Below, in pieces: positions 41,841-58,105 of a stretch of 64,000 nt of DNA. Location of the stretch: positions 1 to 64,000 of the forward strand of contig NZ_JARVSC010000006.1 of assembly GCF_030209375.1 (NCBI RefSeq). The letters run 5' to 3'. The notes beneath the pieces were generated by a model. The model searched no databases and was not told the DNA's origin. It saw nothing but the letters and a program-made list of their open reading frames with translations. Each line of letters opens with the position of its first letter. The first letter of the stretch is position 1. The stretch is from Plantibacter sp. ME-Dv--P-122b. GTDB taxonomy: Bacteria > Actinomycetota > Actinomycetes > Actinomycetales > Microbacteriaceae. A program made the translations under genes and the position numbers.

Positions 41841-41858
41841 GCCCTCCCCTCCGTCGAC

Positions 41859-42132: not shown

Positions 42133-42172
42133 ATCGCCCAGGGGAGGCTCCACGATCAGGGATACTGGAGGG

Positions 42173-43024: not shown

Positions 43025-43033
43025 CGTTGGCGC

Positions 43034-44101: not shown

Positions 44102-44141
44102 CGCGGTCTGAGGCGCCTGCTCGATCGACTAACTTGGAACA

Positions 44142-45080
44142 ATGACCACCGAGGCCATCCTCAAGCACGTCCACGTGCGAGCACCGGGGAAGATCAACGT
44201 CTTCCTCAAAGTCGGCGAAGTGATGGACGACGGCTACCACGACGTCGCGACCGCGTACCAGGCGATCTCGCTGTACGAGGACGTGCACGCGTACCCGGCC
44301 GACGACTTCAGTGTGTCGTTCTCCGGCTCGGTGGACGTGTCGGGTGTGCCGACCGACACGAGCAACCTCGCCATCCGCGCCGCGAAGGCCCTCGCGAGAC
44401 GGACCGGGTACCGCGGCGGTGTCCGGCTCGAGATCGAGAAGCACGTCCCGGTCGCCGGCGGGATGGGCGGCGGCTCAGCCGACGCCGCGGCCACGCTGCT
44501 CGCCTGTGACGCCCTCTGGGGGACCGAACGCAGCCGCGACGACCTCCTGGCGCTGGCGGCACGCCTCGGCGCCGACGTGCCCTTCGCCCTGCTCGGCGGC
44601 ACCGCGGTCGGCACCGGCCGCGGCGACCAACTGAGCAGCGCGTTGGCCAAGGGGCAGTTCGAGTGGGTGCTCGCCCTCGCCGACTTCGGCATGTCGACCC
44701 CGCAGGTCTACCAGGAGCTCGACGCCCACCGGGCGCGGCACATCCTCGACATCTCTCCGTCCGGTCGCCAGCCGACGGTCGACGCCGCGGTGCTCCAGGC
44801 GTTGCGGGCGGGCGACGCCCACCTCCTCGGAGAGGTCCTCTACAACGACCTGCAGGCCGCTGCGCTGCAGCTGCGCCCGGTGCTGGGCGAGGTGCTCGAG
44901 TTCGGCGACTCCCAGGGCGCCCTCGGCAGCCTCGTCTCCGGCTCCGGCCCGACGATCGCCTTCCTGGCGGCCGACACCGACGACGCCGTCGAACTGCAGG
45001 TGACGCTCGCCTCGCACGGGCTGAAGGTCATCCGTGCCCACGGGCCGGTCCACGGCGCCCGCATCGTCTCGCAGAGCTGA
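44142..45080 (+). CDS. ispE: 4-diphosphocytidyl-2-C-methyl-D-erythritol kinase
   Basis: A 312-aa GHMP kinase of the MEP isoprenoid pathway. [13 protein letters not shown] (13-25) holds the substrate Lys, [20 protein letters not shown] (about 106-125) the ATP loop, and [13 protein letters not shown] the third GHMP motif. Cytoplasmic. Last gene of the rsmI-ispE run; a terminator follows at 45102. In related actinobacteria an ABC-F gene usually follows ispE directly; here a 10-kb lipid-gene block lies between (my recollection of gene order, not computed). Confidence 0.96.
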
Positions 45081-45101
45081 GACGCGGCCCGCACGACACG
45101 A

Positions 45102-45135
45102 AGCAGCCCCGGTCGGAGATCCGACCGGGGCTGCT
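45102..45135 (+). terminator. bidirectional hairpin terminator
   Basis: A perfect 15-bp GC-rich stem (45102-45116 with 45121-45135) and a 4-base loop lie between the ispE stop (45080) and the stop of the convergent diiron-protein gene (45153). No U-tract. Serves both directions. Confidence 0.87.
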
Positions 45136-45152
45136 GTGCCAGGCGGCGCGGT

Positions 45153-45947
45153 TCAGGCCGCGACGCCGCGCACGCGGAGCGAGTTCTCGATGATCGTGAG
45201 CCCCTCCATGCCGGGGAGCTTGGCGATGTGCCCGTCGATGCGGCGCACCTCGGCCAGCCCGTCCTCGTCGCCGAAGAGGTGCCCCATGACGTGAGTGACC
45301 TCGGAGTCGGGCATGACGCCGGAACCGACGGGACCCCACACCTTGCGGAGTAGGAAGCGGGTGAGTCGACGTGCGCTCTTCGACGACTCCAGGCGTGCCT
45401 TCGCCTGGCTCGCGTAGAACGCCACGTGACGCGTCTCCTGCTTCGCGATGCGCTTGAGGAGCACCGAGAGCACCGGGTGCCGCTCCAACTGCGCGAGGCG
45501 GGTGTACGCGGCGGTCGCCGACCACTCGTTCGCGGCGCCCCAGCTCATGTGCACCGCGATGAAGTCGGTGCCGACGAGGTTGCCGAGGATGGACTGCTTG
45601 ATGGGGTCGAGGCGGTCCTTCCAGCCGAGCTTCAGGCGCGTCGCCTTGAGCTCGTCGAAGTCGACCGTGATGTCGTGGGCGGCGAGGACGGCGGCGAGCG
45701 CCTCCCCGTGCCAGAACTCCTCACGGTTCCACATCGTCATGAACGCGCCGACCTCGTCGTCCTCATGGGACGGCGTCATGAGCATGTCGCGCAGGTAGCA
45801 GACCGTGTGGTACTCGATGTCGCACATGTAGCGCAGGCTGCGCAGGGTGGAAGCGGGGAGCGGGTTCGTCTTGAACTCGTCGAAGTCGAGGTCGCTCCAG
45901 TTCACCGAGACGCTCGTCTCGGTGAACTTGTCGATGTCAAACGCCAT
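45153..45947 (-). CDS. ferritin-like diiron protein, acyl-ACP desaturase-like
   Basis: A 264-aa soluble helical protein with a complete carboxylate-bridged diiron site: Glu45 (DIEYH), Glu77 and His80 (EEFWH), Glu141 (ANEWS), Glu171 and His174 (ETRH). The spacing E-31-ExxH and E-29-ExxH is that of ferritin-like oxidases and acyl-ACP desaturases. It probably activates O2 for desaturation or oxidation of a lipid chain; substrate unknown. Its start overlaps the end of the acyl-reductase gene by 11 bp, so it is third in a three-gene operon. It is paralogous to the first gene of that operon. A plasmalogen-forming desaturation is one possibility (inference). Confidence 0.82.
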   Translation of the reverse strand: MAFDIDKFTETSVSVNWSDLDFDEFKTNPLPASTLRSLRYMCDIEYHTVCYLRDMLMTPSHEDDEVGAFMTMWNREEFWHGEALAAVLAAHDITVDFDELKATRLKLGWKDRLDPIKQSILGNLVGTDFIAVHMSWGAANEWSATAAYTRLAQLERHPVLSVLLKRIAKQETRHVAFYASQAKARLESSKSARRLTRFLLRKVWGPVGSGVMPDSEVTHVMGHLFGDEDGLAEVRRIDGHIAKLPGMEGLTIIENSLRVRGVAA

Positions 45948-48348
45948 GTGCGGTGGGGCGGTCGGGGATCGTGTCCTCGGCCGTCCGCTCTCCTCTCGGC
46001 TGTGCGGGGCGCGGTGCGCGGGTCAGTTCGTCTTCGGAGCGGACGCCTCCGGTGGTTCGTGCCCATTCTCGCACCGTCCACCGTCCGGCCTGCGCCAGCT
46101 TGTACAGGGTGTGGTCGGGGTTGACAGCGACCGGGTTGCCGACTAACTGGAGCCAGGCGGCGTCCGCATGGGAGTCGCCGTAGCCGTAGGAATGGGCGAG
46201 GTCCATGCCGTGCTGCTCGGCGTACTGGGTGAGCCAGGCGCCGCGCGCTTCGTCGACGAGCGGCGGGCTGTCGAGGTAGCCCGTGAGACGTCCGTTCTCG
46301 GCGTGCATCGCACCCGCCACGACCTCGTCGAAGAACGGCTCGAGCGGAGCCGTCATGAGGTCGATGGTGCCCGTGACGAGGATCGTCCGGTGACCGGCCG
46401 CCCGGTGCGCGGCGATCTGCTCGAGCGCCTGGGGGAGGAGGCGGGACCGGACAGCCTTACCGAAGCCGCCCCGGACGATCTTCTCGAGCTGCGCCACGTC
46501 GACGCCCTCGTAGCGGCGCATGAACGTGCGGATGAACTCACCGCGGTCGCGGAGTTCGGCACCGATGTACCCCGGCATGGAAGCGCCCAGTGTGGCGATC
46601 TCGATGGGCCAGCGCGACCGTGAGGTCGCGGCGAGCCGCAGCCAGAGGTACTGCTCGATGAGGTTCCAGGCGAGCACCGTGCCCTCGAGGTCGAACACCG
46701 CGAGGACGTCGTCGCGCACGGGCAGGATCTTCTGCTGCTTCGCGGCGCCCGCCTTGCGGTTGGCGAAGGCCCGGGTCAGGGTCGTGACGGCGGGGAAGTG
46801 GATGCGCTGGAAGTAGTCGTCCCAGTCGATCGTCGTGACGTCGAACCCTCGGTCCGCCTGCTGCTCGGGCGTCAGCGAGTCGTGCAGGGCACGGGTGCGC
46901 TGGTCGTCGAAGACGATCTCGCTCTGCACGTAGGAGCGGTAGAGCCCGGTGAAGTCGCGCAGCGACCCGAGATCGCTCGACGCCTTGCGGATCCGGTCCT
47001 GCCACCCGCGGGTGGTCGCGTTCGCCGGCAGGTGGGAGACGACCCGGCCGGCCGCCGTCGTCGCCTTCTGCCGCCGGTCGATGGAGCGCTCGATGGCGCG
47101 CCCGCCGGGGAAGTTCCAGGTCGGGACGCTGATGTCGCCGGCGTCCGCCGGGATCGGGTGCTCCGTGAAGTAGCTGTGCACGTTCGCGTACATCTTGTGG
47201 AAGGGCAGCGGGTTGCTGGCTCCGGAGCTCACGTGGAAGTAGCGCGCCGCAGCCGGCTCCGGCGGGGTCTGGGCCGCAGCGAGGATCGCGTTGACGACGA
47301 AGTCGACGGGGATGATGTCGAGCACGCTGTCGGGGAGGCCCGGGAAGTCGGGCAGCTGTCCGCGCCCGTAGGCGATGATCAGCGGGTCGGCGACCTTGTA
47401 GCCGTCGATCCAGCCGGGGAAGGGGTGCGCGAGCGCGCTCTCGATGATCGACGGACGCACGACGGAGAGTCGGTTGCCCTCACCGGCCCAGCGCTCTTCG
47501 GCGACCCGCTCGGCCATCGCCTTCGTGAAGGTGTAGACGTCGGTCCAGCCGAGGCTCTCGGCGCGTGCACGGCCGTGGGCGACGAGTCGGGCGTCGACCC
47601 AGGCGATGCGTGCAGCCTCGGCGGCGTTCGAGACGGCCTGGGGGCCGGCCTTGCCGTGCTCGCGACGGGCGGTCTGCATGAGCTTGCGCAGGACCTCCGG
47701 ACGACGGGACGACTCCTCGGTGCGGACGCGCGCCGAGCGGGCTGCCTCGGCCTCGACGCGCCAGTCGACGTCGTGCGCGAGGCTGCGTTCCGGCTGGATG
47801 CCCTTCCGCGTACCGCCGACGTAGGCGGTTGAGACGTGGACGACGTGCGGGGTCGCGCCGCTCTTCGCGAGCGCCGCGTACAGGGTGGTCGCGCCGCCGA
47901 CGTTCGTGGCGAAGGCCTCGTCGATCGGCGGGTCGAAGGAGACGGTCGACGCGCTGTGGATGACGACGTCGAGGTCGGCCGGCAGTGCCATCTCGTCGAG
48001 GCCACCCTCGATCACGCTGACGCGTTCGGCCACGATCGCCGCAGCGGCTTCGGCGCCGACGCGTTCGCGCCAGGCCTTGAACACCGGCTTGCGGAGCAGT
48101 GTCTGGAGACGGTCGCTCCCGCGGACCGACCCCTTCTTCCGGATGAGCAGGCTGACGCGGGTGGTCGGGTGATCGGCGAGCAGGCGCTCGAGCACCGCCT
48201 GGCCGAGGAAGCCGGTGCCGCCGGTGACGAGCACGTGCGCGCCGTCGAGGGCATCCGGGACGGTGGTGGGCTGCTCGGCCGCGGGCTCTTGAGCCTCCGG
48301 CTCCTGGGCGTCCGGCTGCTCGGCGTCTGGGGTGGGGGTGTCGGTCAT
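45937..48348 (-). CDS. fatty acyl-CoA reductase-like SDR fused to HAD-IB phosphatase
   Basis: An 803-aa two-domain protein. After a low-complexity acidic start, residues about 37-400 form an extended SDR of the fatty-acyl reductase type: GGTGFLG (43-49) for NADPH, HVSTAYVGG, and the active site YTFTKAMAE (Tyr272, Lys276), the exact FAR pattern. Residues about 545-765 are a HAD-IB phosphatase: FDLEGT (Asp553), LVTGTIDLM and GDSHAD (724-729). The second motif-I acid is Glu555 where Asp is standard. Eukaryotic FARs carry a different C-terminal domain. Likely role: fatty acyl-CoA to fatty alcohol. Start overlaps the upstream stop (ATGA, 48345-48348). Confidence 0.85.
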   Translation of the reverse strand: MTDTPTPDAEQPDAQEPEAQEPAAEQPTTVPDALDGAHVLVTGGTGFLGQAVLERLLADHPTTRVSLLIRKKGSVRGSDRLQTLLRKPVFKAWRERVGAEAAAAIVAERVSVIEGGLDEMALPADLDVVIHSASTVSFDPPIDEAFATNVGGATTLYAALAKSGATPHVVHVSTAYVGGTRKGIQPERSLAHDVDWRVEAEAARSARVRTEESSRRPEVLRKLMQTARREHGKAGPQAVSNAAEAARIAWVDARLVAHGRARAESLGWTDVYTFTKAMAERVAEERWAGEGNRLSVVRPSIIESALAHPFPGWIDGYKVADPLIIAYGRGQLPDFPGLPDSVLDIIPVDFVVNAILAAAQTPPEPAAARYFHVSSGASNPLPFHKMYANVHSYFTEHPIPADAGDISVPTWNFPGGRAIERSIDRRQKATTAAGRVVSHLPANATTRGWQDRIRKASSDLGSLRDFTGLYRSYVQSEIVFDDQRTRALHDSLTPEQQADRGFDVTTIDWDDYFQRIHFPAVTTLTRAFANRKAGAAKQQKILPVRDDVLAVFDLEGTVLAWNLIEQYLWLRLAATSRSRWPIEIATLGASMPGYIGAELRDRGEFIRTFMRRYEGVDVAQLEKIVRGGFGKAVRSRLLPQALEQIAAHRAAGHRTILVTGTIDLMTAPLEPFFDEVVAGAMHAENGRLTGYLDSPPLVDEARGAWLTQYAEQHGMDLAHSYGYGDSHADAAWLQLVGNPVAVNPDHTLYKLAQAGRWTVREWARTTGGVRSEDELTRAPRPAQPRGERTAEDTIPDRPTAHGV

Positions 48349-49247
48349 GAGTTCTCCTCGAGGCTGCCGCGGCGTCCGCGGCGGGCAAGTCTGGCGGCGA
48401 GATGGAGGCCCGACTGACCGGGCAGCGCGTCGATCGACGCGTCGATGCCGAGGACGGCGGGGTCGCTCCAGGTGGCGGTGCTGCGGAACACGAGCGCGGC
48501 GAACCGCGCCGTCTGTCGGGGGCCGTTCGCATCGGAGCCGGTGGGCCACACGGCGTTCCGGATACGGCGACGGGTGATGCCCTGTGCACGGGGCGACGCG
48601 GCGAGGCGGTCATTCGCCTGAGCGGTGAAGAACTCGAGGTGCCTGGCCTTCGTCTCGAGGATCTCGTCGACGAGGCGGTCGAGCACGGGGTGCGGCTCGC
48701 GCTCGCGCACCGCACGGTAGGCCGCGTGGGTGATGAGGTCGTCGATCGTCCCGATCGTCATGTGCCAGGCGATGATGTCCTCGCCGAGCACGTTCGCGAT
48801 GAGGGCCTGGCCGATGGGCGCGAAGCGGTCGCGCACACCGTGGACGGTGCGGCGGAGACCCGTCGAACGCGTCTTGTCGCGCGGGGTCCCGTTCGCCTTG
48901 AGCACGGTGTCGAGGGTGTCGGTGATCCAGTACTTCTCGTACGCCCAGGTGATGAGGAACGCGGTGACCCTGGCGTCCTTGTGGGTGGGGGTGACGAGCA
49001 CCCCGCGGAGGTACTGCATGGTGGCGCGCTCGATGTCCGACAGGGCGCGGAGCAGCGCGACCGTCTCAGCACTCAGCGGCGTCTCGGCGAAGGCTTCGGC
49101 GTCGATCTCCTTACGACGACTGCCGACGGCGGACTTCGCATAGTCGCGGACGCTGAAGCCGTGGGCAGGCCGCAACATGGCGCTCTCCTGCTCCGCGTCC
49201 TCGAGGGCCGCGGGTGCTGTTCCGCGCGGCGAATCCCGGTTCACCAT
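48345..49247 (-). CDS. degenerate ferritin-like paralogue of the diiron protein
   Basis: A 300-aa protein alignable without gaps in the core to the protein at 45153-45947 (DIE-YLR--L-TP-H, then HPVL). Of six diiron ligands only Glu73 and His203 remain; the others are Lys105, Ile108, Asp170 and Lys200 in place of Glu, His, Glu and Glu. It cannot bind the same metal centre, so it may be a partner or regulatory subunit of the active paralogue. First gene of the operon with the acyl reductase. The ATG at 49247 follows GGAG at six bases. The open frame extending upstream runs into the divergent promoter and is not used. Confidence 0.75.
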   Translation of the reverse strand: MVNRDSPRGTAPAALEDAEQESAMLRPAHGFSVRDYAKSAVGSRRKEIDAEAFAETPLSAETVALLRALSDIERATMQYLRGVLVTPTHKDARVTAFLITWAYEKYWITDTLDTVLKANGTPRDKTRSTGLRRTVHGVRDRFAPIGQALIANVLGEDIIAWHMTIGTIDDLITHAAYRAVREREPHPVLDRLVDEILETKARHLEFFTAQANDRLAASPRAQGITRRRIRNAVWPTGSDANGPRQTARFAALVFRSTATWSDPAVLGIDASIDALPGQSGLHLAARLARRGRRGSLEENS

Positions 49248-49288
49248 GGCGTCTCCATTCCGTGACGATCCGACCTCATCACTGTAGC

Positions 49289-49319
49289 TTGCAACGATAC
49301 GCAACGCGTAGCGTATTCT
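49289..49319. promoter_or_regulatory. divergent lipid-cluster promoter with near-perfect palindrome
   Basis: A 20-bp palindrome ATACGCAACGCGTAGCGTAT (49297-49316; symmetric except one base pair) lies between -35 TTGCAA (49289-49294) and -10 TATTCT (49314-49319) for the short-chain reductase gene. The -10 ends 7 bases before its ATG at 49327 with no ribosome binding site, so the mRNA is probably leaderless. The half-site CGCWACG resembles the CGCTACG arms at 54202-54232 beside the TetR gene. Spacing of arms differs (0 versus 5 bp). Confidence 0.6.
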
Positions 49320-49326
49320 GATCCCC

Positions 49327-50124
49327 ATGGCTACAGCTCTCGTCACCGGTGGGACGTCCGGCATCGGTGCCGCGTTCGCCACGGCGCTCGCCGGACGGGG
49401 CTTCGACCTGGTGCTCGTCGCCCGTGACGTCGAGCGGCTCGAGCACTCGGCCGAGCGACTGCGCGCGACCGGTCGCACCGTCGAGGTGATCAGTGCCGAC
49501 CTCTCGGACCGCGCCGACGTCGCGAGACTCGCCGCACGGATCGAGGATCAGGCGTCGCCGATCGAGGTGGTCGTGAACAACGCCGGGTTCGGCGTGCACG
49601 CCCGCCTCACCGACCCCGACACGAGCGAACTCGACAACGCGATCGAGGTCATGTGCCGGAGCGTCACCACGCTCTCGGGCGCCGCGGCCCGCGCCATGCG
49701 GGAACGCGGACGCGGCACCATCATCAACGTCTCGAGCACGGCGGGGTACATCACCACCGGCGGCTACTCGGCGGTGAAGGCGTTCGTCACCACCTACACC
49801 GAGGCGCTCGCGGTCGAGCTCGCCGGCTCAGGTGTCCGCGTCACGGCCCTGTGCCCCGGGTGGGTCCGTACCGAGTTCCACGATCGCGCCGGCATCAGCA
49901 CCCGATCGATCCCGTCAGGTCTGTGGATCGACGTGGACCGGCTCGTCGCCGACGCCCTCCGCGACGCCGGGAGGGGGGTCGTCGTCTCCATCCCGAGCCT
50001 CCGCTTCAAGGCCCTCATGGCCCTCGTCAAGTTCGCGCCCCGTGCGTCCATCCGGTGGATCTCCGGCCGGATGTCCTCGAGCCGTCGAGCCGCCAACGCC
50101 GCCCAGTCAGGAGCCCGCCGATGA
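49327..50124 (+). CDS. short-chain dehydrogenase/reductase
   Basis: A 265-aa classical SDR. Cofactor loop TGGTSGIG (7-14), NNAG (84-87), catalytic Ser about 137, Tyr147 and Lys151 (YSAVK). Sequence flavour (LVTGGTSGIGAAFATALAGRG, GWVRTEFHDRAG) resembles reductases of lipid intermediates. In the ether-lipid pathway an NADPH reductase converts acyl- or alkyl-DHAP to the glycerol form, and this gene would fit. First of three coupled genes: its TGA overlaps the acyltransferase ATG (50121-50124). The C-terminal 30 residues are basic with a hydrophobic stretch, perhaps for membrane contact. Confidence 0.88.
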   Translation: MATALVTGGTSGIGAAFATALAGRGFDLVLVARDVERLEHSAERLRATGRTVEVISADLSDRADVARLAARIEDQASPIEVVVNNAGFGVHARLTDPDTSELDNAIEVMCRSVTTLSGAAARAMRERGRGTIINVSSTAGYITTGGYSAVKAFVTTYTEALAVELAGSGVRVTALCPGWVRTEFHDRAGISTRSIPSGLWIDVDRLVADALRDAGRGVVVSIPSLRFKALMALVKFAPRASIRWISGRMSSSRRAANAAQSGARR

Positions 50125-50825
50125 CCGCAGAGCCGCGGTTCACCTCCTCCCTCCACGCCAACGCGCGGTTCGTCGCCCAGCGTCTGCTGTTGAAGCCGCT
50201 CGTCTGGTCGCTGACCCGCGTGACGGTGACGGGTCGCGAGCGCCTGTCGGGCGTCACCGGGCCCTACATCGTCGTCGCCAACCATCAGTCGCACCTCGAC
50301 GCACCGCTCGTCGTCGGGGCGATGCCGCGTCGGCTCTCGCGCTACCTCGCAGCCGGTGTCGCGGCCGACTACTTCTTCGACGTCCCCGCCCGCCGCATCT
50401 TCGCCGCGCTCTTCTTCAACGCGTTCCCGGTCGACCGCTCGGGTGACCGCAAGCGTGCAGGCGTGTCGCGGGAGCTGCTCGAGAGCGGCGTCCCGATCCT
50501 CATCTTCCCCGAGGGCGGCCGATCGCGGACGGGTGAGCTCGGCCGGTTCAAGCCAGGTGCCGCGGCACTCGCCACGCGCCAGGGCATCCCCTGCCTCCCG
50601 GTGGCCGTCCTGGGCACCCACTCCGCCATGCCGAAGGGTCGCAACTGGCCCGTCCCCGGACGACCGCCGGTGCGCGTCGTCTTCGGGCAACCGATCCACC
50701 CGCAGCCGAACGAGACGCCCGTCCAGCTGATGGACCGCGTCGTCGCCGAGATCGTCGCACTGCGCGCCTCGGCCGAGCCGGGAACACACGTTTCGATCGA
50801 CACACCACGAAAGGAAGCCGGATGA
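50121..50825 (+). CDS. PlsC-family 1-acyl-glycerol-phosphate acyltransferase
   Basis: A 234-aa acyltransferase. Motif I NHQSHLD (His55, Asp60), motif II around FPVDRSGDRKRAG, motif III FPEGGRSRTGELG (129-141) and motif IV IPCLPVAVLGTH are all present. Transfers acyl groups from acyl-CoA or acyl-ACP to a glycerol- or dihydroxyacetone-phosphate-type acceptor at the inner membrane face; no clear membrane helix beyond residues 22-34. Overlaps its neighbours on both sides by ATGA, tying it to the SDR and the AGPS-like oxidase. Confidence 0.92.
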   Translation: MTAEPRFTSSLHANARFVAQRLLLKPLVWSLTRVTVTGRERLSGVTGPYIVVANHQSHLDAPLVVGAMPRRLSRYLAAGVAADYFFDVPARRIFAALFFNAFPVDRSGDRKRAGVSRELLESGVPILIFPEGGRSRTGELGRFKPGAAALATRQGIPCLPVAVLGTHSAMPKGRNWPVPGRPPVRVVFGQPIHPQPNETPVQLMDRVVAEIVALRASAEPGTHVSIDTPRKEAG

Positions 50826-52486
50826 CGTCTGTGGAGCACATGAAGTGGTGGGGCTGGGGAGTCGAAGGGGTCGCCTTCGAGCACAGCAACAAACCGGACT
50901 TCGCGCCGTTCGTGAAGCAAGCCGTCGGTCTCGACCTCCGGAAGCCTGCGCAGGCGCACCTCAGCTTCGACGAGCTCACCGTCCCCGCATCGCGCGCGTC
51001 CGAGGAGTTCATCGCCGAGCTCTCGACGCTCGTCGGCCAGGGTCACGTGACCACGGACGACCAGGAACGCGTCGTCCACACCTACGGCAAGAGCATCCGC
51101 GACCTGCTCCGGATCCGCGCGAACGACCTGCCGCGCACGCCCGACCTGGTCGTGTACCCGGCTGACGAGGCGGAGGTCGCGTCGATCGTCGCCGCAGCCG
51201 TCGCCGCAGACGCCGTGATCATCCCGTTCGGCGGTGGAACCAACATCGCCGGCTCGCTCGACCCGCAGCCGACGGAGGAGCGCGTCATCATCTCGCTCGA
51301 CCTCGGACGGCTCGACCGCGTCCTGTCGATCGACGAGGGCTCCGGCCTCGCGACCATCCAGGCCGGTGCGCAGGGTCCCTCGATCGAGGAGCAGCTGGGC
51401 GCCAAGGGCTGGACGATGGGCCACTTCCCCGACAGCTTCACGCACTCCACGCTCGGCGGATGGGTCGCGACCCGCTCCTCGGGCATGCAGTCCGACAAGT
51501 ACGGCGACATCGCCGACATCACCAAGGGCCTGCGGATGGTGCGCCCGAACGGCATCGTGGCGATCCGCCCGGTCCCGAGTGCGTCGACCGGGCCGAGCGT
51601 CCGCGAGATGATCATCGGCAGCGAGGGCCGACTCGGCATCATCACCGAGGTCACCGTGCAGGTCCACCGGACGCCCGCCGTCCGCGAGGTCCTCGGCTAC
51701 TTCTTCCCCACCTGGGAGGCCGGGCTCGCGGCGATGCACGAGATCGCGGAGAGCGACGCCAGCCCCTCGGTCACCCGGGTGTCGAACGCGCGTGAGAGTG
51801 GCTTCTCGCTCGCGACCCGTAAGGCCAGCACCGGCGTCTCGGCGCAGGTCACCAAGGGCCTCATGAAGGTGCTCACGGCCAGGGGCTGGGACCTCGAGCA
51901 GCTGTGCCTCTCCTTCATCGGCTACGAGGGCAGCGCGTCGCACGTGCGGTACGAGAAGGGCCTCGTCGGCTCGATCGTCCGGAAGCACGGCGGCATCGGC
52001 GTCGGCAAGGGCCCCGGTGCCCTCTACGACCAGAAGAAGTTCGACACCCCGTACCTGCGGGACTTCCTCCTCGACCGCGGAGCCGCGGCCGACGTCTCGG
52101 AGACCGCAGCGCCTTGGTCGCGCCTGCAGGAGGTCTACGACGCCGCGAACGATGCTGCCAACGCCGCTTACGACAAACTCGGGGTGCACGGGTGGATCAT
52201 GTGCCACCTCTCGCACTCGTACCACTCCGGCGCGTGCCTGTACTTCACCTTCGCGTTCATCACCGGCGACGACCCGATCGGCGAGTACGAGCAGGTCAAG
52301 TCGGCGATCCAGCAGTCGTTCGTCGACCACGGTGGCACGCTCTCGCACCACCACGCGGTCGGCGTCGAGCACTCGCCGTGGATGGAGCAGGACATCTCGA
52401 CCGAGGGCGTCGCGATCATGCGCGGACTCTTCGACAGCGCGGACCCTGGCTCGAACTTCAACCCCGGCAAGATCCTCGCGGACTGA
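50822..52486 (+). CDS. alkylglycerone-phosphate synthase-like FAD enzyme
   Basis: A 554-aa VAO-family flavoprotein. It starts with the AGPS-type MKWWGWG; the FAD segment is PFGGGTNIAGSL, followed by GHFPDSFTHSTLGGWVATR and SGMQSDKYGDI. Residues corresponding to those important in mammalian AGPS are present: His201, Arg319 (PSVTR), Tyr474 (GACLYFTFAF) and His509-511 (SHHHAVG). AGPS swaps the acyl chain of acyl-DHAP for a fatty alcohol, creating the ether bond. Mycobacterial Rv2251 has a similar place beside a lipid kinase. Alternative: a D-lactate or glycolate-type dehydrogenase, less likely given the HHH loop. Confidence 0.88.
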   Translation: MTSVEHMKWWGWGVEGVAFEHSNKPDFAPFVKQAVGLDLRKPAQAHLSFDELTVPASRASEEFIAELSTLVGQGHVTTDDQERVVHTYGKSIRDLLRIRANDLPRTPDLVVYPADEAEVASIVAAAVAADAVIIPFGGGTNIAGSLDPQPTEERVIISLDLGRLDRVLSIDEGSGLATIQAGAQGPSIEEQLGAKGWTMGHFPDSFTHSTLGGWVATRSSGMQSDKYGDIADITKGLRMVRPNGIVAIRPVPSASTGPSVREMIIGSEGRLGIITEVTVQVHRTPAVREVLGYFFPTWEAGLAAMHEIAESDASPSVTRVSNARESGFSLATRKASTGVSAQVTKGLMKVLTARGWDLEQLCLSFIGYEGSASHVRYEKGLVGSIVRKHGGIGVGKGPGALYDQKKFDTPYLRDFLLDRGAAADVSETAAPWSRLQEVYDAANDAANAAYDKLGVHGWIMCHLSHSYHSGACLYFTFAFITGDDPIGEYEQVKSAIQQSFVDHGGTLSHHHAVGVEHSPWMEQDISTEGVAIMRGLFDSADPGSNFNPGKILAD

Positions 52487-52497
52487 GCCGTTCCTCC

Positions 52498-52570
52498 GGT
52501 CCCTGAGCAGTCTCCGGTCCCTGAGTCGTCCCTCCGGTCCCTGAGCCTGTCGAAGGGCGGGCTCAGGGCC
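52498..52570. repeat. dispersed repeat between convergent lipid genes
   Basis: Three reverse copies, two truncated (GGTCCCTGAG at 52498 and 52516) and one full (52536-52557, GGTCCCTGAGCCTGTCGAAG plus GG), then GGGCTCAGGG. The stop codon of the lipid kinase gene (52563-52565) lies inside this last piece, so the repeat touches the coding end. Confidence 0.82.
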
Positions 52571-53594
52571 GGAGTCGACCCGAGCGCGCCGCCGTCGCCG
52601 GCAACCGCACGATGAGCGCACCGGGGTCGACGGTCAGCCTGGCCGCCGAGACCGGGCCGATCCCGTCGCCGTCGGCCTGGAATTCGGCGGGCGGCGAGAC
52701 CGTCACGTCGATGCGTCGTACCCGGAGGTATCGGAGCGCGCCTCCAGCCGAGCCGGCCGTCTCGACGGCACTCGGCTGCACGCGGCGGCCCCGCGTCCGT
52801 CTGCCCTTGGAGAATCGGGCGACGGGGTTGTTCGCGCGGTGCAGCCAGCGCGTGACGCGCACGCCGTCCCACCCTTCGAGTGACCGCACCATGAGGACGT
52901 CGAGCACACCGTCGTCGAGGAGTGCGTCGGGGAGGACGTCGAGGCCCGCCGAGACGGTGCCGCAGTTCCCGACGAACATCGTGTGCGTCCGTCCACTCCG
53001 GATCGGTCCGCCGTCCTCCTTCCAGGAGACGCGGGGCCGGTCGCGGCGGAACAGCCCGCGGACGATCGGGACGACGTAGGCGATCCAGCCGAAGCGGCGC
53101 TTCAGGACGGGGTCGGCGTAGGCCACCATGTCCGCGTCGACGCCGAAGCCCGACATGACGAGGAACGGGGTGCTGCGCTGGACGCCGTCGGGGTTCCGGT
53201 ACTCGATGACGCCGACGTCGACGCTCCGTTCCTCTCCGGTGAACGCGGCCCGCACCGCGGTGGCCGTGTCGATCGGGATCCCGGCGTTGCGGGCGAAGAG
53301 GTTCGCGGTGCCGACGGGGACGACGGCGAACGGTGTCCGGGTGTGACGCATCGCCCCGGCCACCTCGCGGACGGTCCCGTCGCCGCCGGCGGCGATCACG
53401 AGCGACGCGCCGCCTCCGAGCGCCTCCGCGACCTGGTCGACCGCGGTCGACCGCTCGCGGGTCGGGATCCAGCTCGTCGGTCCCCAACCGGCCTCGGCGG
53501 CCGAGGCGTCGACGAGCCTCGTCACACGCTCGAGCTGGATGCGCGTCGGGTTGTAGATCACCGCAGCGTGCGGTGGGGTGCTGCCTCGCGTCAT
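52563..53594 (-). CDS. diacylglycerol kinase-type lipid kinase
   Basis: A 343-aa DAGK-catalytic-domain protein (DgkB/YegS/Rv2252 type). GGDGTVREVAGAM (70-82) is the nucleotide motif; YNPTR (14-18), PVGTANLFARNAGIP and the C-terminal QADGDGIG segment complete the fold. Phosphorylates diacylglycerol or related lipids; in a cluster with ether-lipid genes alkylacylglycerol is a possible substrate. Start ATG at 53594 overlaps the TetR stop (ATGA at 53591-53594). Convergent with the AGPS-like gene. The order TetR, kinase, AGPS-like resembles Rv2250c-Rv2252 of M. tuberculosis, from memory. Confidence 0.9.
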   Translation of the reverse strand: MTRGSTPPHAAVIYNPTRIQLERVTRLVDASAAEAGWGPTSWIPTRERSTAVDQVAEALGGGASLVIAAGGDGTVREVAGAMRHTRTPFAVVPVGTANLFARNAGIPIDTATAVRAAFTGEERSVDVGVIEYRNPDGVQRSTPFLVMSGFGVDADMVAYADPVLKRRFGWIAYVVPIVRGLFRRDRPRVSWKEDGGPIRSGRTHTMFVGNCGTVSAGLDVLPDALLDDGVLDVLMVRSLEGWDGVRVTRWLHRANNPVARFSKGRRTRGRRVQPSAVETAGSAGGALRYLRVRRIDVTVSPPAEFQADGDGIGPVSAARLTVDPGALIVRLPATAARSGRLRP

Positions 53595-54205
53595 GCGGCC
53601 AGTGCCGGCCAGAGGACGGACAGGACCTGGTCCGCCCAGTCGTCGTCCATGTCGGCGCCACGGACGAGCTGGCCGAGCACCGCGCCGAGGAGCAGGGTCG
53701 CGACGAGGCGGCCGTCGAGTCCGGGCTTCAGATCGCCGGTGGAGATCCGTTCGTCGACCAGGTTGGACAGTGCGCGTGCCCGGTTCCTCGTGAGGTCGCG
53801 GAGCAGCGTCGAGAACTCGGGGTCGTCCTGGAGCAGGATCGACGCGATCGTGCCCCGGCCTACCACGTCCTCGATCATCGCCCGGGCTTCGTGGAGCAGC
53901 CAGGTGAAGGTGTCGTAGGTCGAGAGGTTCTCGGGGATCTCGACCGGGGTCTCCATGGCGCGCGCGACGGCCGCCGTGAGCAGCTCGGAGCGGTTGCGGT
54001 ACCGCCGGTAGATCGTGGTCTTCGCCACGCCGGTGGTCTCCGCGACCGCCTCGATGTTGACGGCGACGGAGCCATGCGAGCGCATGAGGTCGAGGGCTGC
54101 GTCGAGGATGCGGTCGCTCATCTGCTGAGCGCGGGAGACGCGTCGGGAGACGGGCACCGACCAACCTCCTCCGCGCGACGCCGGAGTCCGGTCGGATCGG
54201 TCCAT
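53591..54205 (-). CDS. TetR family transcriptional regulator
   Basis: A 204-aa TetR repressor. The N-terminal HTH runs about 29-75: QQMSDRILDAALDLMRSHGS, then INIEAVAETTGVAKTTIYRR-type recognition helix (VNIEAVAETTGVAKTTIYRR). The C-terminal ligand-binding domain (80-204) resembles TetR_C_11/16 types. The ATG at 54205 lies inside a large palindrome, pointing to autorepression. Co-transcribed with the lipid kinase. It is the best candidate regulator of the lipid cluster; lipid or acyl-CoA effector is a guess. Confidence 0.9.
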   Translation of the reverse strand: MDRSDRTPASRGGGWSVPVSRRVSRAQQMSDRILDAALDLMRSHGSVAVNIEAVAETTGVAKTTIYRRYRNRSELLTAAVARAMETPVEIPENLSTYDTFTWLLHEARAMIEDVVGRGTIASILLQDDPEFSTLLRDLTRNRARALSNLVDERISTGDLKPGLDGRLVATLLLGAVLGQLVRGADMDDDWADQVLSVLWPALAA

Positions 54206-54232
54206 TGCGCTACGCCCACCGTAGCGCAATGG
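54202..54232. promoter_or_regulatory. TetR operator overlapping the TetR start codon
   Basis: Perfect 13-bp arms CCATTGCGCTACG (54202-54214) and CGTAGCGCAATGG (54220-54232) are separated by five bases. The TetR ATG (minus strand, 54205-54203) sits in one arm, and a candidate -10 TACGGT on the minus strand overlaps the centre, implying a very short leader. Half-site CGCTACG recurs in the divergent promoter at 49297-49316. Confidence 0.78.
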
Positions 54233-54272
54233 GATGGGTGCGCATAGGGAGGCCTCGGCGGCGGCGGTGTCG

Positions 54273-55148
54273 TCAGTCCCAGCGGGGGTCGTCGGGGTCG
54301 GGGGAGTCCTCGCCGTCGGCATCGGTCATGACCGTCGCCCCGTCGATCCAGTCCGTGAGTGCGTCACCGTGCAGCTGCTCCGGGGCTGGTGCGCCGAAGA
54401 GCTGCGGGTGCGTGACGGCCGCGAGCGGTGCGTCGCTCGCGAAGACGACGACGTTGCCGAGCGGCCCCTCGTCGTCGACCGGATCGAAGTCGAGGACGAC
54501 GGCGACATGCGCGAACACGGTTCGCAGGGTCGCCGCCTGGCGTCTCGAGTAGTCGAAGGGGCTGCCGTCGAGCAGGTTCACTGCGATCACGCCGTCGTCC
54601 GCGGACCGCGCTGCCACGCGGCGGTAGAACTCGAGGCTCGCGACGCGACGGTGGATCACGGCGGCGTCCCAGAGGTCGACGACGGTCACCTTCGCGTCCC
54701 GCCACGCCGTGACGTCCCCAGGGGTGGTGGCGGCTTCGCCGATCGGCTCGTCCGCGACGGCCCTGGCATCACCGAAGCGGACCTCGACCCGGTGTCCGTC
54801 CGGGAGCGGCAGCGCGTCCAGCATCCCGGCGTACAGTTCCGGCTCGAACTCGACGACCAGCTGCGGTGATCCGGGACGCGTCGCCTGGACGTAGCGGGGG
54901 AGCGTCAATGCTCCGGCACCGAGGTGGACGACGAAGAGCGCCTCGCCCGCCGGCGCCTCGGCGTCGATCACGCGGGCGATGTGCCGGATGTACGGGTACT
55001 CGAGCAAGCGGGGATCCGCGAGGGAGACCACCGACTGCGGGATGTCGTCCACGCTGAGCTCGTAGCGCAGCGTCCGCTTGTCGAGGAGGGTGATCCGGGC
55101 GTCGCGTCGGCCGAACGGGAGTCGGCGGGAACGGGAGAACAGAGGCAC
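54273..55148 (-). CDS. spermidine synthase-like methyltransferase-fold protein
   Basis: A 291-aa Rossmann-fold protein of the spermidine/polyamine synthase-like group. ALFVVHLGAGALTLPRYV (about 70-87) replaces the GGGDGG loop of true spermidine synthases, VVEFEPEL follows, and VTVVDLWDAAVIHRR is the DxxD-type acidic segment, with NLLDGSPFDYSRR further on. True polyamine activity is doubtful because the gatekeeping motif is altered; many actinobacterial members are of unknown role. ATG at 55148; its promoter region faces the ABC-F gene, 61 bp away. Tail is acidic and Asp-rich. Confidence 0.82.
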   Translation of the reverse strand: MPLFSRSRRLPFGRRDARITLLDKRTLRYELSVDDIPQSVVSLADPRLLEYPYIRHIARVIDAEAPAGEALFVVHLGAGALTLPRYVQATRPGSPQLVVEFEPELYAGMLDALPLPDGHRVEVRFGDARAVADEPIGEAATTPGDVTAWRDAKVTVVDLWDAAVIHRRVASLEFYRRVAARSADDGVIAVNLLDGSPFDYSRRQAATLRTVFAHVAVVLDFDPVDDEGPLGNVVVFASDAPLAAVTHPQLFGAPAPEQLHGDALTDWIDGATVMTDADGEDSPDPDDPRWD

Positions 55149-55209
55149 CCGTGCAGCCTACGGTGCACGGGCGGTGGTCGACGCCCGGGCCCGGTATCGT
55201 TGACCGGAT

Positions 55210-57009
55210 ATGGCACACCTTCTCGGCGCTGAAGCGCTCCACCTCGAGTACCCGACCAAGGTCGTCTTCGACGGCATCACGATCGGGGTGAACGAGGGCG
55301 ACCGCATCGGCATCGTCGGTCGCAACGGCGACGGCAAGTCCACACTCCTCGGCCTCCTCGCCGGCCGCAAGGAGCCCGACTCCGGACGCGTGACGGTGCG
55401 CAACGGCGTGACGGTCGGCGTGCTCGACCAGTCCGACACCCTCGACCACGACAAGACCGTCGGCCAGACCATCGTCGGCGGCTTCGACGAACACGAGTGG
55501 GCGGGCGACCCGAAGGTCCGCGACGTCATCTCCGGCCTCGCCTCCGACATCGCCTGGGACGCGCTCGTCGCCGACCTCAGCGGTGGTCAGCGCCGCCGGG
55601 TCGCGCTCGCCGCCCTGCTCGTGGGCGACCACGACATCCTCTTCCTCGACGAGCCGACGAACCACCTCGACGTCGAGGGCATCACCTGGCTCGCGCAGCA
55701 CCTCAACCGTCGCTGGTCGAAGAACTCCGGCGGCCTGCTCGTCGTGACCCACGACCGGTGGTTCCTCGACGCCATCTGCACGGCCACGTGGGAGGTGCAC
55801 GACCGCATCGTCGAACCCTTCGAGGGCGGGTACGCGGCCTACGTCCTGCAGCGCGTCGAGCGCGACCGCTCCGCCGCGGTCTCCGAGGCCAAGCGCCAGA
55901 ACCTCATGAAGAAGGAGCTCGCCTGGCTGCGCCGTGGCGCTCCCGCCCGGACGGCCAAGCCGAAGTTCCGCATCGAGGCCGCCAACGCGCTCATCGCCGA
56001 CGAGCCGCCCGTGCGCAACACGGTCGAGCTGGCCGGCATGGCGACCGCCCGCCTGGGCAAGGACGTCGTCGACATCCTCGACGTCACCGTGTCCTACGGC
56101 GACCGGACGGTCATCAAGGACGTCGAGTGGCGCATCGCCCCGGGTGAGCGCACCGGCATCCTCGGCGTGAACGGCGCCGGCAAGTCCACCCTCCTCGGTC
56201 TCGTCACGGGCGAGGTCGAAGCGACCGAGGGTCGCGTCAAGCGCGGTAAGACCGTGCAGGTCGCGACGCTCACGCAGCAGCTCGACGAGCTCGCCGAGTA
56301 CGAGCAGGACCGCGTGAGCGACGTCATCGGACGCAAGCGCACGAGCTACGTCGCCGGCGGCAAGGAGATGACCCCGGGGCAGCTCCTCGAGCGCCTCGGC
56401 TTCACGAGTGCGCAGCTGTCGACGCCGGTGAAGGACCTCTCGGGTGGTCAGCGCCGCCGTTTGCAGCTCCTGCTCATCCTGCTCGACGAGCCGAACGTCC
56501 TCGTGCTCGACGAACCGACCAACGACCTCGACACCGACATGCTCGCCGCCATGGAGGACCTCCTCGACTCGTGGCCGGGCACCCTGCTCGTCGTCTCGCA
56601 CGACCGGTACTTCCTCGAGCGCGTGACCGACCAGCAGTACGCGATCATGGACGGCCACTTCCGGCACCTGCCCGGCGGCATCGACCAGTACCTGGAGCTC
56701 AACGCCGGGACGGCCGGCAGTCGCTCCCAGGAGCACGACCGCCCGACGGCTTCCGGCGGTGGCCCGACCAAGAAGACGCCGAAGCTGAGCGGTGCGGAGC
56801 TCCGGAACGCGCAGCAGGAGATCAAGGCGATCGACCGCAAGCTCCACAAGCTCAACGGTCAGATCGAGCAGGCGCACGAGAAGGTCGCGGTCCACGACCA
56901 GAGCGACTTCGCCGGCATCACGGCTCTCGGCGCCAAGATCCAGGCCATGTACGGCGAGATCGCCGACCTCGAGGTCCGCTGGCTGGAGCTCTCCGAGCTC
57001 GTCGAGTAG
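55210..57009 (+). CDS. ABC-F family ATPase
   Basis: A 599-aa soluble tandem ABC protein without membrane helices. Domain 1: Walker A GRNGDGKST (about 37-45), LSGGQRRRVALAALL, LFLDEPTNHLD. Domain 2: GVNGAGKST (about 318-326), LSGGQRRRLQLLL, LVLDEPTNDLD. Between them lies the P-site tRNA-interaction linker (SEAKRQNLMKKELAWLRRGA PARTAKPKFR region), and a C-terminal coiled coil (about 535-595) as in Uup. ABC-F proteins act on ribosomes (EttA, Uup) or protect against antibiotics; the coiled coil favours a Uup-like role. Confidence 0.92.
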   Translation: MAHLLGAEALHLEYPTKVVFDGITIGVNEGDRIGIVGRNGDGKSTLLGLLAGRKEPDSGRVTVRNGVTVGVLDQSDTLDHDKTVGQTIVGGFDEHEWAGDPKVRDVISGLASDIAWDALVADLSGGQRRRVALAALLVGDHDILFLDEPTNHLDVEGITWLAQHLNRRWSKNSGGLLVVTHDRWFLDAICTATWEVHDRIVEPFEGGYAAYVLQRVERDRSAAVSEAKRQNLMKKELAWLRRGAPARTAKPKFRIEAANALIADEPPVRNTVELAGMATARLGKDVVDILDVTVSYGDRTVIKDVEWRIAPGERTGILGVNGAGKSTLLGLVTGEVEATEGRVKRGKTVQVATLTQQLDELAEYEQDRVSDVIGRKRTSYVAGGKEMTPGQLLERLGFTSAQLSTPVKDLSGGQRRRLQLLLILLDEPNVLVLDEPTNDLDTDMLAAMEDLLDSWPGTLLVVSHDRYFLERVTDQQYAIMDGHFRHLPGGIDQYLELNAGTAGSRSQEHDRPTASGGGPTKKTPKLSGAELRNAQQEIKAIDRKLHKLNGQIEQAHEKVAVHDQSDFAGITALGAKIQAMYGEIADLEVRWLELSELVE

Positions 57010-57147
57010 CCTCCTCGCGGCGGCCGAATCACGTCGTTCGTCGCTCTGTTCCGAAGTGTTACGCACCGGTTCGTCATCCCCACTCGGCCGACGTACCGTC
57101 GAATCAGCGTCCACCGGCGCGCACCACCCGAAAGAGGAATCACAGCA

Positions 57148-58050: not shown

Positions 58051-58062
58051 TCCGACGTTCAG

Positions 58063-58105
58063 AGCGTTCCTGTGGGAGGCTGTCATCCGCTCCCACAGGA
58101 ACGCT
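58063..58105 (+). terminator. hairpin inside the metQNI operon
   Basis: A perfect 16-bp stem (58063-58078 with 58090-58105) and an 11-base loop start 13 bp after the metQ stop. metN begins 49 bp later with no obvious new promoter. It may act as a partial terminator or 3' stabiliser, giving more binding protein than transporter, a usual ratio for ABC importers (inference). Confidence 0.75.

Follow-up and report, generated by a model that had tools for sequence, protein, structure and literature searches.

Our analysis has shown that a 64,000-nucleotide stretch of DNA from the genus Plantibacter (the window, meaning that whole stretch) carries, at 45153-54205, every gene that an earlier note had named there as a candidate ether-lipid or plasmalogen cluster, each of them open and in its place (Table 1). 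The genes form two three-gene operons, FerB-FAR/HAD-FerA and SDR-PlsC-AGPS, plus a DAGK-TetR unit. The note had described the operons as facing, which is wrong; they are divergent, back to back, with a 79-bp gap (49248-49326) as the start point for both, and the one facing pair is AGPS and DAGK. Neighbouring genes overlap by 4 bases each for FerB/FAR, SDR/PlsC, PlsC/AGPS and TetR/DAGK, and by 11 for FAR/FerA. The inverted repeat beside ispE was read off the printed sequence; a scan gave no report of it.

Table 1. Genes and other features of the cluster in the window.
Feature	Position	Strand	Basis
Inverted repeat between ispE and FerA (perfect arms of 15 bp, no T tail), possibly a bidirectional terminator	45102..45135	.	
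FerA: soluble ferritin-fold diiron protein, candidate plasmanyl (1-O-alkyl) delta-1' desaturase	45153..45947	-	Conserved ligands, AF2, Foldseek
FAR-HAD: fatty acyl-CoA reductase fused to HAD domain, candidate fatty-alcohol source	45937..48348	-	Pfam, NCBIfam, conserved residues
FerB: FerA paralogue, degenerate metal site, probable non-catalytic partner	48345..49247 (start codon inferred)	-	Alignment, AF2
Putative operator CGCTACG-N5-CGTAGCG, 1 mismatch, in divergent gap	49295..49313	+	
SDR: short-chain reductase, candidate alkyl-DHAP reductase	49327..50124	+	Pfam, conserved residues
PlsC-type acyltransferase, candidate DHAP acyltransferase (GNPAT role)	50121..50825	+	Pfam, conserved residues
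AGPS: predicted alkyl-dihydroxyacetone-phosphate synthase (ether bond)	50822..52486	+	Scores, active-site residues
DAGK: YegS/Rv2252-type lipid kinase, accessory; presumed substrate ether diglyceride or alkylglycerol	52563..53594	-	Pfam, NCBIfam
TetR-family protein, probable regulator of cluster	53591..54205	-	Pfam, operator co-occurrence
Putative operator CGCTACG-N5-CGTAGCG, exact, directly 5' of TetR	54208..54226	+	

Score and active-site residues identify the AGPS-like protein as the predicted alkyl-DHAP synthase. It scores 393 bits against Dictyostelium AGPS and 298 against guinea-pig AGPS, with the next family at 80, and by score AGPS is its nearest match among VAO-type oxidases; Pfam finds FAD_binding_4 (113 bits) and FAD-oxidase_C (130 bits). 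Nine of the 12 guinea-pig positions compared are retained, including the active-site residues H300, D303, R419, R515, Y578 and H615-H617 (guinea-pig numbering). The three that are replaced (K347, L469 and S527) likewise differ in Dictyostelium AGPS. The flavoprotein could instead be a D-lactate/glycolate oxidase-type dehydrogenase in a catabolic or envelope-related cluster, as its top NCBIfam match (GlcD, 126 bits, far under the cut-off of 568) and that of the SDR (mycolate reductase, 163 against a cut-off of 380) might suggest; the gap between AGPS and the next family and the retained active-site residues make this barely credible. The earlier note had held that a place among unrelated dehydrogenases would speak against its reading; score and residues instead say AGPS, and the tree is compatible with this. 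AGPS-like and DAGK genes also adjoin in two actinobacterial loci that we take to be of the Rv2250c-Rv2252 kind (L108 and L109, with a weak TetR match in L108), but there the AGPS is only 34-36% identical to that of the window, has Q in place of D303 and stands without FerA, FAR or PlsC alongside.

The key residues of FAR-HAD, the SDR and PlsC are also conserved. FAR-HAD matches NAD_binding_4 (166 bits) and HAD (101 bits), with Sterile sub-threshold, and its Y272 and K276 and the HAD residues D553, E555, T557, D725 and D729 are conserved with at most two exceptions in 73 rows, so the catalytic residues of this candidate fatty acyl-CoA reductase are intact. The SDR and PlsC belong to generic families, namely adh_short (156 bits) and Acyltransferase (80 bits, scanned on a longer open frame containing PlsC). 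Y147 and K151 of the SDR (YxxxK; 71 rows) and H55, D60 (HX4D) and F129-P-E-G132 of PlsC (69 rows) again show no more than two exceptions each.

An E / ExxH / E / ExxH metal site is the motif of known soluble desaturases and R2-like oxidases. FerA has these diiron ligands of the soluble acyl-ACP desaturases (PF03405), with E45, E76, E77, H80, E141, E171 and H174 kept in 81/81 rows of the alignment; FerB does not. By Pfam, FerA falls below the PF03405 gathering score (18.5 against 22.7 bits) and matches Rubrerythrin and FA_desaturase_2 below cut-offs only. Its AF2 model (mean pLDDT 88.7) had acyl-ACP desaturases as top Foldseek matches, followed by R2-like oxidases; among the 50 matches listed, the best E was 4e-4, two had E <=0.001, TM (query) was ~0.45-0.64 and rmsd 5.7-11.7. 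Against the desaturases the fold agrees at TM 0.51-0.64, a match that is only moderate because rmsd is 5.7-10.3. FerA shares the ferritin-like fold and metal site with R2-like ligand-binding oxidases and with the soluble acyl-ACP desaturases (DesA, castor delta-9). It differs from the desaturases in its 14-18% identity to those listed, its sub-cut-off Pfam score, its own degenerate paralogue and its ether-lipid gene context. That paralogue, FerB, is 32% identical to FerA, has no Pfam match at E 0.01 and gives an AF2 model of mean pLDDT 89.0. At the FerA ligand sites it has E77->K (71/77), E171->K (68/77) and H80->I/L/V (74/77), while E45 (76/77), E141 (58/77) and H174 (59/77) are retained.

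All six genes of the two operons occur together in 66/80 FerA loci, 61 of them in identical order, so the cluster is more than chance. The co-occurrence that the earlier note had proposed as a check is strong for AGPS and FerA within Microbacteriaceae, where 68/68 genomes with orthologous AGPS also have FerA (249 genomes searched; 69/74 when six divergent AGPS matches are counted), and weaker across the class, where FerA is found in 22/35 genomes with orthologous AGPS and absent from 13, indicating that AGPS does not need FerA. Conversely, 8/76 FerA-positive Microbacteriaceae and 17/39 FerA-positive genomes of the class are without orthologous AGPS. One of these (G332) has FerA beside FAR and PlsC with no AGPS match, both Agromyces genomes searched have FerB-FerA without AGPS or FAR (E 1e-40), and in genus g123 all 12 FerA-positive genomes gave no FerB match at 1e-25. 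In two Propionibacteriaceae loci (L059, L067) the gene immediately upstream of FerB-FAR-FerA is an AGPS of animal type (43% to guinea pig), so this trio accompanies two AGPS lineages. These distributions bear on whether the route might end at saturated alkyl-ether lipids, with FerA/FerB acting otherwise on chains (e.g. mid-chain acyl desaturation) and an unknown, unlinked enzyme making the vinyl ether. FerB-FerA persist in a clade of genomes that has no orthologous AGPS, which would suit this, as would FerA homologues (39-55% identity) that stand alone in other families, for four of which the scanned neighbours are unrelated, and soluble FerA relatives that act, by annotation, on acyl-ACP. We nevertheless consider it doubtful, given the unbroken AGPS-FerA association in Microbacteriaceae, the two AGPS lineages accompanied by FerB-FAR-FerA, and the nesting of the AGPS-less clade inside cluster FerA, which fits later uncoupling.

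The kinase and TetR are additions confined to certain lineages: DAGK (DAGK_cat, 76 bits) is found in 15/80 FerA loci and the window's TetR (TetR_N, 40 bits), counted at >=130 bits, in 27/80. The putative TetR operator CGCTACG-N5-CGTAGCG is present in 27/27 divergent loci carrying window-type TetR and, as a sequence pattern, ties the operons together. Repression by TetR would be the expected mode of action.

Among known plasmalogen routes, DUF2229, a domain of PlsA, was found in 0/78 genomes searched and in 4/14 control genomes. PF10520, the eight-histidine membrane domain of CarF/PEDS1, was found in 0/90 distinct genomes, an absence that is weakly shown because no control genome gave a match. 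The animal peroxisomal pathway (GNPAT, FAR1, AGPS, acyl/alkyl-DHAP reductase, PEDS1) runs through the same types of reaction, in the order predicted here, and its AGPS is homologous to that of the window, with the active-site residues named above retained. The cluster is unlike it in its two divergent operons, in that no CarF/PEDS1 relative was found, and in having a soluble diiron pair where PEDS1 is an eight-histidine membrane desaturase (motif from the part of PMC7149458 available). As described in excerpts of PMC9131029, the aerobe Myxococcus xanthus (MXAN_1674-1676 and elb operons, CarF) has genes for AGPS, FAR, an acyltransferase and a NAD-dependent reductase-type protein in an operon, and its elbB encodes a HAD protein as the cluster has a HAD domain; its FAR is fused to a GNPAT domain, and the vinyl ether is made by CarF. 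In contrast, the cluster has FAR fused to HAD and FerA/FerB within it, and those excerpts mention no ferritin-like protein. The anaerobic PlsA/PlsR route resembles the cluster in yielding bacterial plasmalogens and in that a TetR/AcrR-type regulator can adjoin, but there an ester is converted by reductases, in anaerobes (PMC9702350, in part).

Dimethyl acetals (DMA), mentioned in the earlier note for Subtercola and Frigoribacterium, are indeed in print for both (excerpts of PMC5945732, PMC12823222), and DMA in aerobic Actinobacteria has been on record since 2000 (cited in the parts of PMC5945732 and PMC7472656 available). DMA made up 22.1% of peak area in S. vilae DB165 and 20.7-28.6% in four Subtercola species (PMC5945732, same excerpts). 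Strain DB165 itself carries the cluster (L064), and species- or genus-level agreement comes from S. lobariae (L070), S. boreus (L072, L074) and Agreia (L077). No FerA match was found in G173, the probable genome of Lacisediminihabitans profunda, and the AGPS matches do not include this genome; the L. profunda paper gives C14:0 2-OH below 1% and has no DMA term. Microbacteriaceae polar lipids, as listed in the available excerpts, consist mainly of PG and cardiolipin, together with glycolipids. Our literature search found no lipid data for Plantibacter and no assigned genes for the vinyl-ether lipids/DMA of aerobic Actinobacteria.

Two further readings concern these lipids. In the first, FerA would be a diiron 2-hydroxylase of fatty acids, and the peaks reported as C14:0 2-OH in these genera would be real hydroxy acids. 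Such peaks reach 17.0% in F. faeni and in F. adelgis (PMC12823222, in part) and 3.9-15.6% in four of five Subtercola species, S. endophyticus showing none. C14:0 2-OH and a-15:0 DMA are listed side by side for F. adelgis (PMC12823222) and, in one table, for S. lobariae (10.3 next to 9.7; PMC5945732), so a real hydroxy acid suits as well, and for Frondihabitans the literature states 14:0 2-OH without DMA (all from the excerpts of these papers). However, GC-MS showed such a peak in Kineococcus rubinsiae to be anteiso-C15:0 dimethyl acetal (PMC7472656). MIDI C14:0 2-OH and a-15:0 DMA values match in S. boreus (10.4 vs 11.0) and S. frigoramans (9.9 vs 10.3), and do not in S. vilae (15.6 vs 3.2) and S. 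lobariae (3.9 vs 9.7; DMA from the excerpts of PMC5945732). As a hydroxylase would also leave AGPS and FAR unexplained, we regard this reading as highly improbable. The second is that the product is neutral storage or wax-type lipid (wax esters, alkyl-diacylglycerols) and not membrane plasmalogen. FAR, acyltransferase, HAD domain and DAGK suit neutral-lipid turnover, and M. xanthus makes an alkyl-diacylglycerol ether lipid (excerpts of PMC9131029); the DMA share in the four Subtercola species is a membrane-scale amount, however, and AGPS accompanies the other five genes in most loci, making this highly improbable.

Taken together, AGPS identity, AGPS-FerA co-occurrence in Microbacteriaceae and the presence of the cluster in DMA-positive S. 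vilae DB165 support the ether-lipid/plasmalogen reading. The locus very probably encodes an aerobic DHAP route to ether lipids; that it is an animal-DHAP-type plasmalogen cluster, in which FerA/FerB perform the vinyl-ether step, we put at about 55%. From what is observed (gene content, linkage, AGPS family and residues, the conserved ligands of FerA and the degenerate site of FerB, the operator pattern), we infer all enzyme activities, the substrates and the desaturation step. FAR would reduce acyl-CoA, mostly with branched chains, to fatty alcohol and the PlsC-like enzyme would acylate DHAP, after which AGPS would exchange the acyl group for the fatty alcohol, giving the ether bond. The SDR would then reduce alkyl-DHAP to 1-alkyl-glycerol-3-phosphate for phospholipid synthesis, and FerA with its degenerate partner FerB would introduce the 1'-2' double bond in an O2-dependent step; the resulting vinyl-ether lipids would yield dimethyl acetals on methanolysis. 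TetR, via CGCTACG-N5-CGTAGCG, would control both operons and its own TetR-DAGK unit. FerA is, at somewhat better than even odds, the best candidate for the vinyl-ether desaturase. There is perhaps an even chance that FerA/FerB represent a second, independently evolved aerobic plasmalogen desaturase, convergent with membrane CarF/PEDS1: a soluble diiron enzyme of ferritin fold, paired with an inactive subunit and acting on PG, cardiolipin or glycolipid alkyl ethers.

A review describes plasmalogens as exceptional in aerobic bacteria and myxobacteria as an overlooked exception (PMC9131029, excerpts). The cluster may explain the vinyl-ether lipids reported in aerobic soil and plant bacteria. If FerA does make the vinyl ether, it would be a new enzyme solution for that step, for which the animal gene was reportedly published only in 2019-2020, and, being soluble, would lend itself to study more readily than a membrane enzyme. 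In that case plasmalogens would occur widely among aerobic Actinobacteria, with TetR control in some of these bacteria. A share of the C14:0 2-OH recorded in routine fatty-acid typing would be wrongly assigned anteiso-15:0 dimethyl acetal, and chemotaxonomic C14:0 2-OH values may conceal plasmalogens.

Our analysis indicates that this locus is an ether-lipid cluster, a reading to which we give a probability of about 0.9. Eight genes lie between ispE and a spermidine-synthase-like gene. Those on the minus strand are FerB, FAR-HAD (a fatty acyl-CoA reductase fused to a HAD domain) and FerA, a soluble ferritin-fold diiron protein of which FerB is a paralogue; SDR (a short-chain reductase), PlsC (an acyltransferase) and AGPS (an alkyl-DHAP synthase-like protein) follow on the plus strand. 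The earlier note had described two facing operons, but these six genes form divergent operons starting from one common 79-bp gap, and it is DAGK (a lipid kinase) and the regulator TetR, on the minus strand, that face AGPS. The tight overlaps it had claimed are present, at 4 bases in four gene pairs and 11 bases between FAR and FerA, and suggest that the genes may be translationally coupled. The window's FerA is 100% identical to that of P. flavus and of two other Plantibacter. A sigma-70 promoter scan found none, a terminator scan of 44900-55300 returned a single match, outside the cluster (shuffle mean 2.1), and Rfam gave zero matches over 40000-60000 of the window. Three copies of the motif GGTCCCTGAG lie in the 76 bp that separate AGPS from DAGK, and more are found elsewhere in the window, as with a dispersed repeat. 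Residues 553-557 of FAR-HAD read D-x-E-x-T, the usual HAD motif being D-x-D-x-T, and E555 is conserved in all but at most two of 73 rows. The spermidine-synthase-like gene, which lacks an MFS part, adjoins TetR; a Spermine_synth-domain protein adjoins FerA in another locus (L094).

Coordinates of features in and around the cluster
Feature	Position	Strand	Situation	Operator match
ispE	44142-45080		borders the eight genes	
FAR-HAD	45937-48348	minus	within the cluster	
Candidate operator	49295-49313		in divergent gap	1 mismatch
Motif GGTCCCTGAG	52498, 52516, 52536		AGPS/DAGK gap	
Candidate operator	54208-54226		before TetR	exact
Spermidine-synthase-like gene	54273-55148		borders the eight genes	
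Terminator match	55173-55146	minus	outside the cluster	
Motif GGTCCCTGAG	6838, 6876, 15189, 15248, 59847, 59869, 59935, 59957		elsewhere in the window	

A search of solved structures with the AGPS-like protein gave Dictyostelium AGPS at 393 bits and guinea-pig AGPS at 298, the next family (D-lactate dehydrogenase) scoring 80. Of twelve positions compared with guinea-pig AGPS, the window protein shares nine (H300, D303, R419, E471, R515, Y578, H615, H616, H617); the other three, K347, L469 and S527, are changed in Dictyostelium AGPS too. The nine minus E471 are what we take to be the active site, and these eight are also kept in all 12 cluster AGPS of the same alignment. The earlier note had allowed that the protein might fall among unrelated dehydrogenases; on these scores and conserved active-site residues we reject an ordinary dehydrogenase and take the protein for an AGPS. 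In a tree of 26 rows, with an arbitrary root and long eukaryote branches flagged, the cluster AGPS and their ortholog relatives form one group of 18. AGPS homologues in Actinobacteria were already known as such (PMC11868695).

The two Propionibacteriaceae loci (L059, L067) have a different AGPS directly upstream of FerB-FAR-FerA. This type is 43% identical to guinea-pig AGPS, compared with 34% for Dictyostelium AGPS, and groups with the guinea-pig enzyme at 100/100, a placement that carries a long-branch warning; the genome of L057 has a related animal-type AGPS away from its FerA locus. Since the L059/L067 AGPS differs from the cluster AGPS, FerB-FAR-FerA is partnered with AGPS of two lineages, both of which have a eukaryotic relative of known structure. 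We weigh this pairing heavily in favor of a probable ether-lipid role for FerA and FerB.

Scanning genome contigs with FerA gave 176 relatives, and the best 80 of these were used as loci. The six genes are complete in 66/80, and the window's gene order is kept in 61/80. Three loci (L015, L017, L047) lack AGPS alone and end on the AGPS side, and four more (L007, L061, L066, L069) are incomplete and short (4.3-7.9 kb). The Naasia genome (L040) has AGPS, PlsC, SDR and FAR elsewhere, that of L071 carries a complete set of six at another place, and the animal-type AGPS accompanies L057, L059 and L067. The two Agromyces genomes (L068, L080) gave zero AGPS or FAR matches at 1e-40. Titles among the 80 loci cover many Microbacteriaceae genera together with Streptomyces, Phytoactinopolyspora, Ruania and Kocuria. 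The gene may be mobile: one copy of FerA (NZ_CP109481.1, 1074753-1075544) sits on a linear Streptomyces replicon of 2.35 Mb that is entered as a mobilizable plasmid, the sole plasmid record with FerA, whose annotation gives no features. Some genomes hold two FerA genes: in G252 one stands apart and one is in a full cluster (L071, L087), and in G593 both matches are full-length. In some versions of the cluster, those of Subtercola vilae (L064, 7564-9102) and G332 (L110, 11900-13477), FAR and FerA are separated by a lactate-racemase-like protein (Lar_N) and an acyltransferase of the PlsC type.

A candidate TetR operator, CGCTACG-N5-CGTAGCG, was matched with at most one mismatch in the FerB-SDR gap of 27/27 loci with TetR (at least 130 bits) and 3/33 without it, among the 60 loci with a divergent FerB-SDR gap. 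Two of these three (L017, L019) end before the TetR position and the third (L078) has a weaker TetR match. Such matches number 35 in total across the 1.485 Mb of the 80 loci, and 3/27 loci have one within 150 bases before TetR itself. Two matches in the window (at most two mismatches) were equalled in 19/100 shuffles, and Plantibacter's own genome has four against six for reversed controls. Such counts are not rare in themselves; support for the operator comes from position and co-occurrence.

The earlier note had proposed checking co-occurrence across Microbacteriaceae, and within the family the outcome for AGPS and FerA was clearly favourable. FerA is present in 76/249 genomes. Searching with AGPS at 1e-60 gave 74 matches, from which six divergent ones (257-350 bits) were set aside to leave 68 orthologues, one of them in two pieces (G124). 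FerA occurs in 68/68 genomes with orthologous AGPS (Fisher p 1e-52, ignoring relatedness), or in 69/74 if all matches are counted, while eight of the 76 FerA-positive genomes have no AGPS orthologue. In the class sample of 344 genomes, 39 have FerA, 35 have orthologous AGPS (>500 bits) and 22 have both, which leaves 17 FerA genomes without an AGPS orthologue and 13 AGPS genomes without FerA, 11 of these from one genus. Because of these 13, the rule that AGPS implies FerA is true in the family sample and false in the class sample; the one such genome looked at (G289, L091) has AGPS without PlsC, SDR or FAR within 20 kb. Divergent AGPS-like genes are common, 142/344 class genomes having matches below 500 bits only. 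Those of L108 and L109 adjoin DAGK and keep HHH, R419, R515 and Y578, with D303 changed to Q.

The FerA ligands E45, E76, E77, H80, E141, E171 and H174 are kept in 81/81 rows. FerB is 32% identical to FerA and keeps E45 in 76/77, E141 in 58/77 and H174 in 59/77 rows, with E77 changed to K in 71/77, E171 to K in 68/77 and H80 to I, L or V in 74/77. On these replacements we reject FerB as a second active diiron enzyme, and from the alignments we read FerA as the probable catalytic subunit and FerB as its dead partner. AlphaFold models had a mean pLDDT of 88.7 (FerA) and 89.0 (FerB). Foldseek with FerA returned soluble acyl-ACP desaturases and R2-like oxidases (best E 4e-4, two matches at or below 0.001, rmsd at least 5.7); with FerB it returned mainly R2-like oxidases (best E 3.6e-3, zero at 0.001). 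Pfam matches of FerA to desaturase and rubrerythrin were all sub-threshold, and NCBIfam gave zero matches. We lean, by a little, towards FerA being the vinyl-ether desaturase.

FerA could instead act elsewhere and not on the vinyl-ether step, which we consider unlikely although worth serious weight. Five genomes that lack orthologous AGPS (two Agromyces, G022, G053, G131) have FerA proteins that group as a single clade (99/95) inside cluster FerA, beside those of Agreia (L077) and L075; one later uncoupling of FerB-FerA from the remaining cluster genes would fit this. FerA homologues in other families (39-55% identity; L099-L103, L107) have no further cluster gene beside them in the stretches that were examined, and their ligands are kept in the alignment, from which L101 was left out, except in the most distant, L103. 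The neighbors of stand-alone FerA genes belong to unrelated families (10 proteins scanned). The genome G332 has FerA with FAR-HAD, PlsC, the Lar_N protein and a zinc alcohol dehydrogenase, and zero AGPS matches. The AGPS-less clade, the stand-alone homologues and G332 lower our confidence that FerA acts on ether lipids only.

Published lipid chemistry bears on the product. The dimethyl acetals (DMA, derivatives of vinyl-ether lipids) claimed for Subtercola and Frigoribacterium are indeed in print (PMC5945732, PMC12823222). DMA totals, summed here from PMC5945732 with traces left out, are 22.1% of peak area in S. vilae DB165, 26.5% in S. frigoramans, 28.6% in S. boreus and 20.7% in S. lobariae; the same source also gives iso-15:0 DMA at no more than 4% for Agreia, and 14:0 2-OH with DMA absent for Frondihabitans. 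The cluster is carried by the DMA-positive strain S. vilae DB165 itself (L064), and by S. lobariae CGMCC 1.12976 (L070), two other S. boreus strains (L072, L074) and Agreia sp. PsM10 (L077). DMA is also reported for Kineococcus (PMC7472656).

A further possibility, that FerA is a 2-hydroxylase, seems to us very improbable. In K. rubinsiae the peak called C14:0 2-OH is anteiso-15:0 DMA by GC-MS (PMC7472656). F. adelgis has C14:0 2-OH as well as 15:0 anteiso aldehyde/DMA, described as known in F. faeni but in neither of the remaining Frigoribacterium species, F. endophyticum and F. salinisoli (PMC12823222). C14:0 2-OH is given as 17.0% for F. faeni and below 1% for L. profunda in the available part of PMC7033078, where the DMA term is absent. 

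The probable L. profunda genome (G173) gave zero FerA matches and is also missing from the genomes matched by AGPS; in its genus FerA is found in 9/13 genomes (3/6 among the better ones). The two MAGs titled Frigoribacterium (L075, L076) are unsafe as evidence for that genus, since L075 maps to G591, whose genus code, g70, is also that of Lacisediminihabitans changchengi. In the accessible portions of the sources, five Agromyces profiles, from strains other than the two genomes searched, have no 2-OH acid, and their paper has no DMA term (PMC11294650), S. endophyticus has no C14:0 2-OH (PMC9287328) and the description of S. metalliresistens mentions no acetal. The terms plasmalogen and dimethyl are absent from the S. 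vilae genome paper, as are plasmalogen and dimethyl acetal from the available part of an Actinobacteria taxonomy paper. A literature search found nothing on Plantibacter lipids.

Known vinyl-ether routes were also considered. DUF2229, which we take to be part of PlsA, was found in 0/78 genomes and in 4/14 controls, and on this we reject the PlsA route as the source of the acetals. The CarF route was set aside on PF10520 (CarF/PEDS1), found in 0/90 distinct genomes, among them every one of the 76 FerA-positive Microbacteriaceae, a weak test in that no control genome rang. Outside myxobacteria, Leptospira is said to be the only bacterial group with reported true CarF homologues (PMC9131029). Searches of open-access papers turned up neither genes assigned to the aerobic plasmalogens of Actinobacteria nor a vinyl-ether enzyme resembling FerA.

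In conclusion, carriers of the cluster probably make a vinyl-ether product. The animal-type ether-lipid pathway is known and we read the route here as the same; what we rate as new is a different candidate for its last enzyme, FerA.
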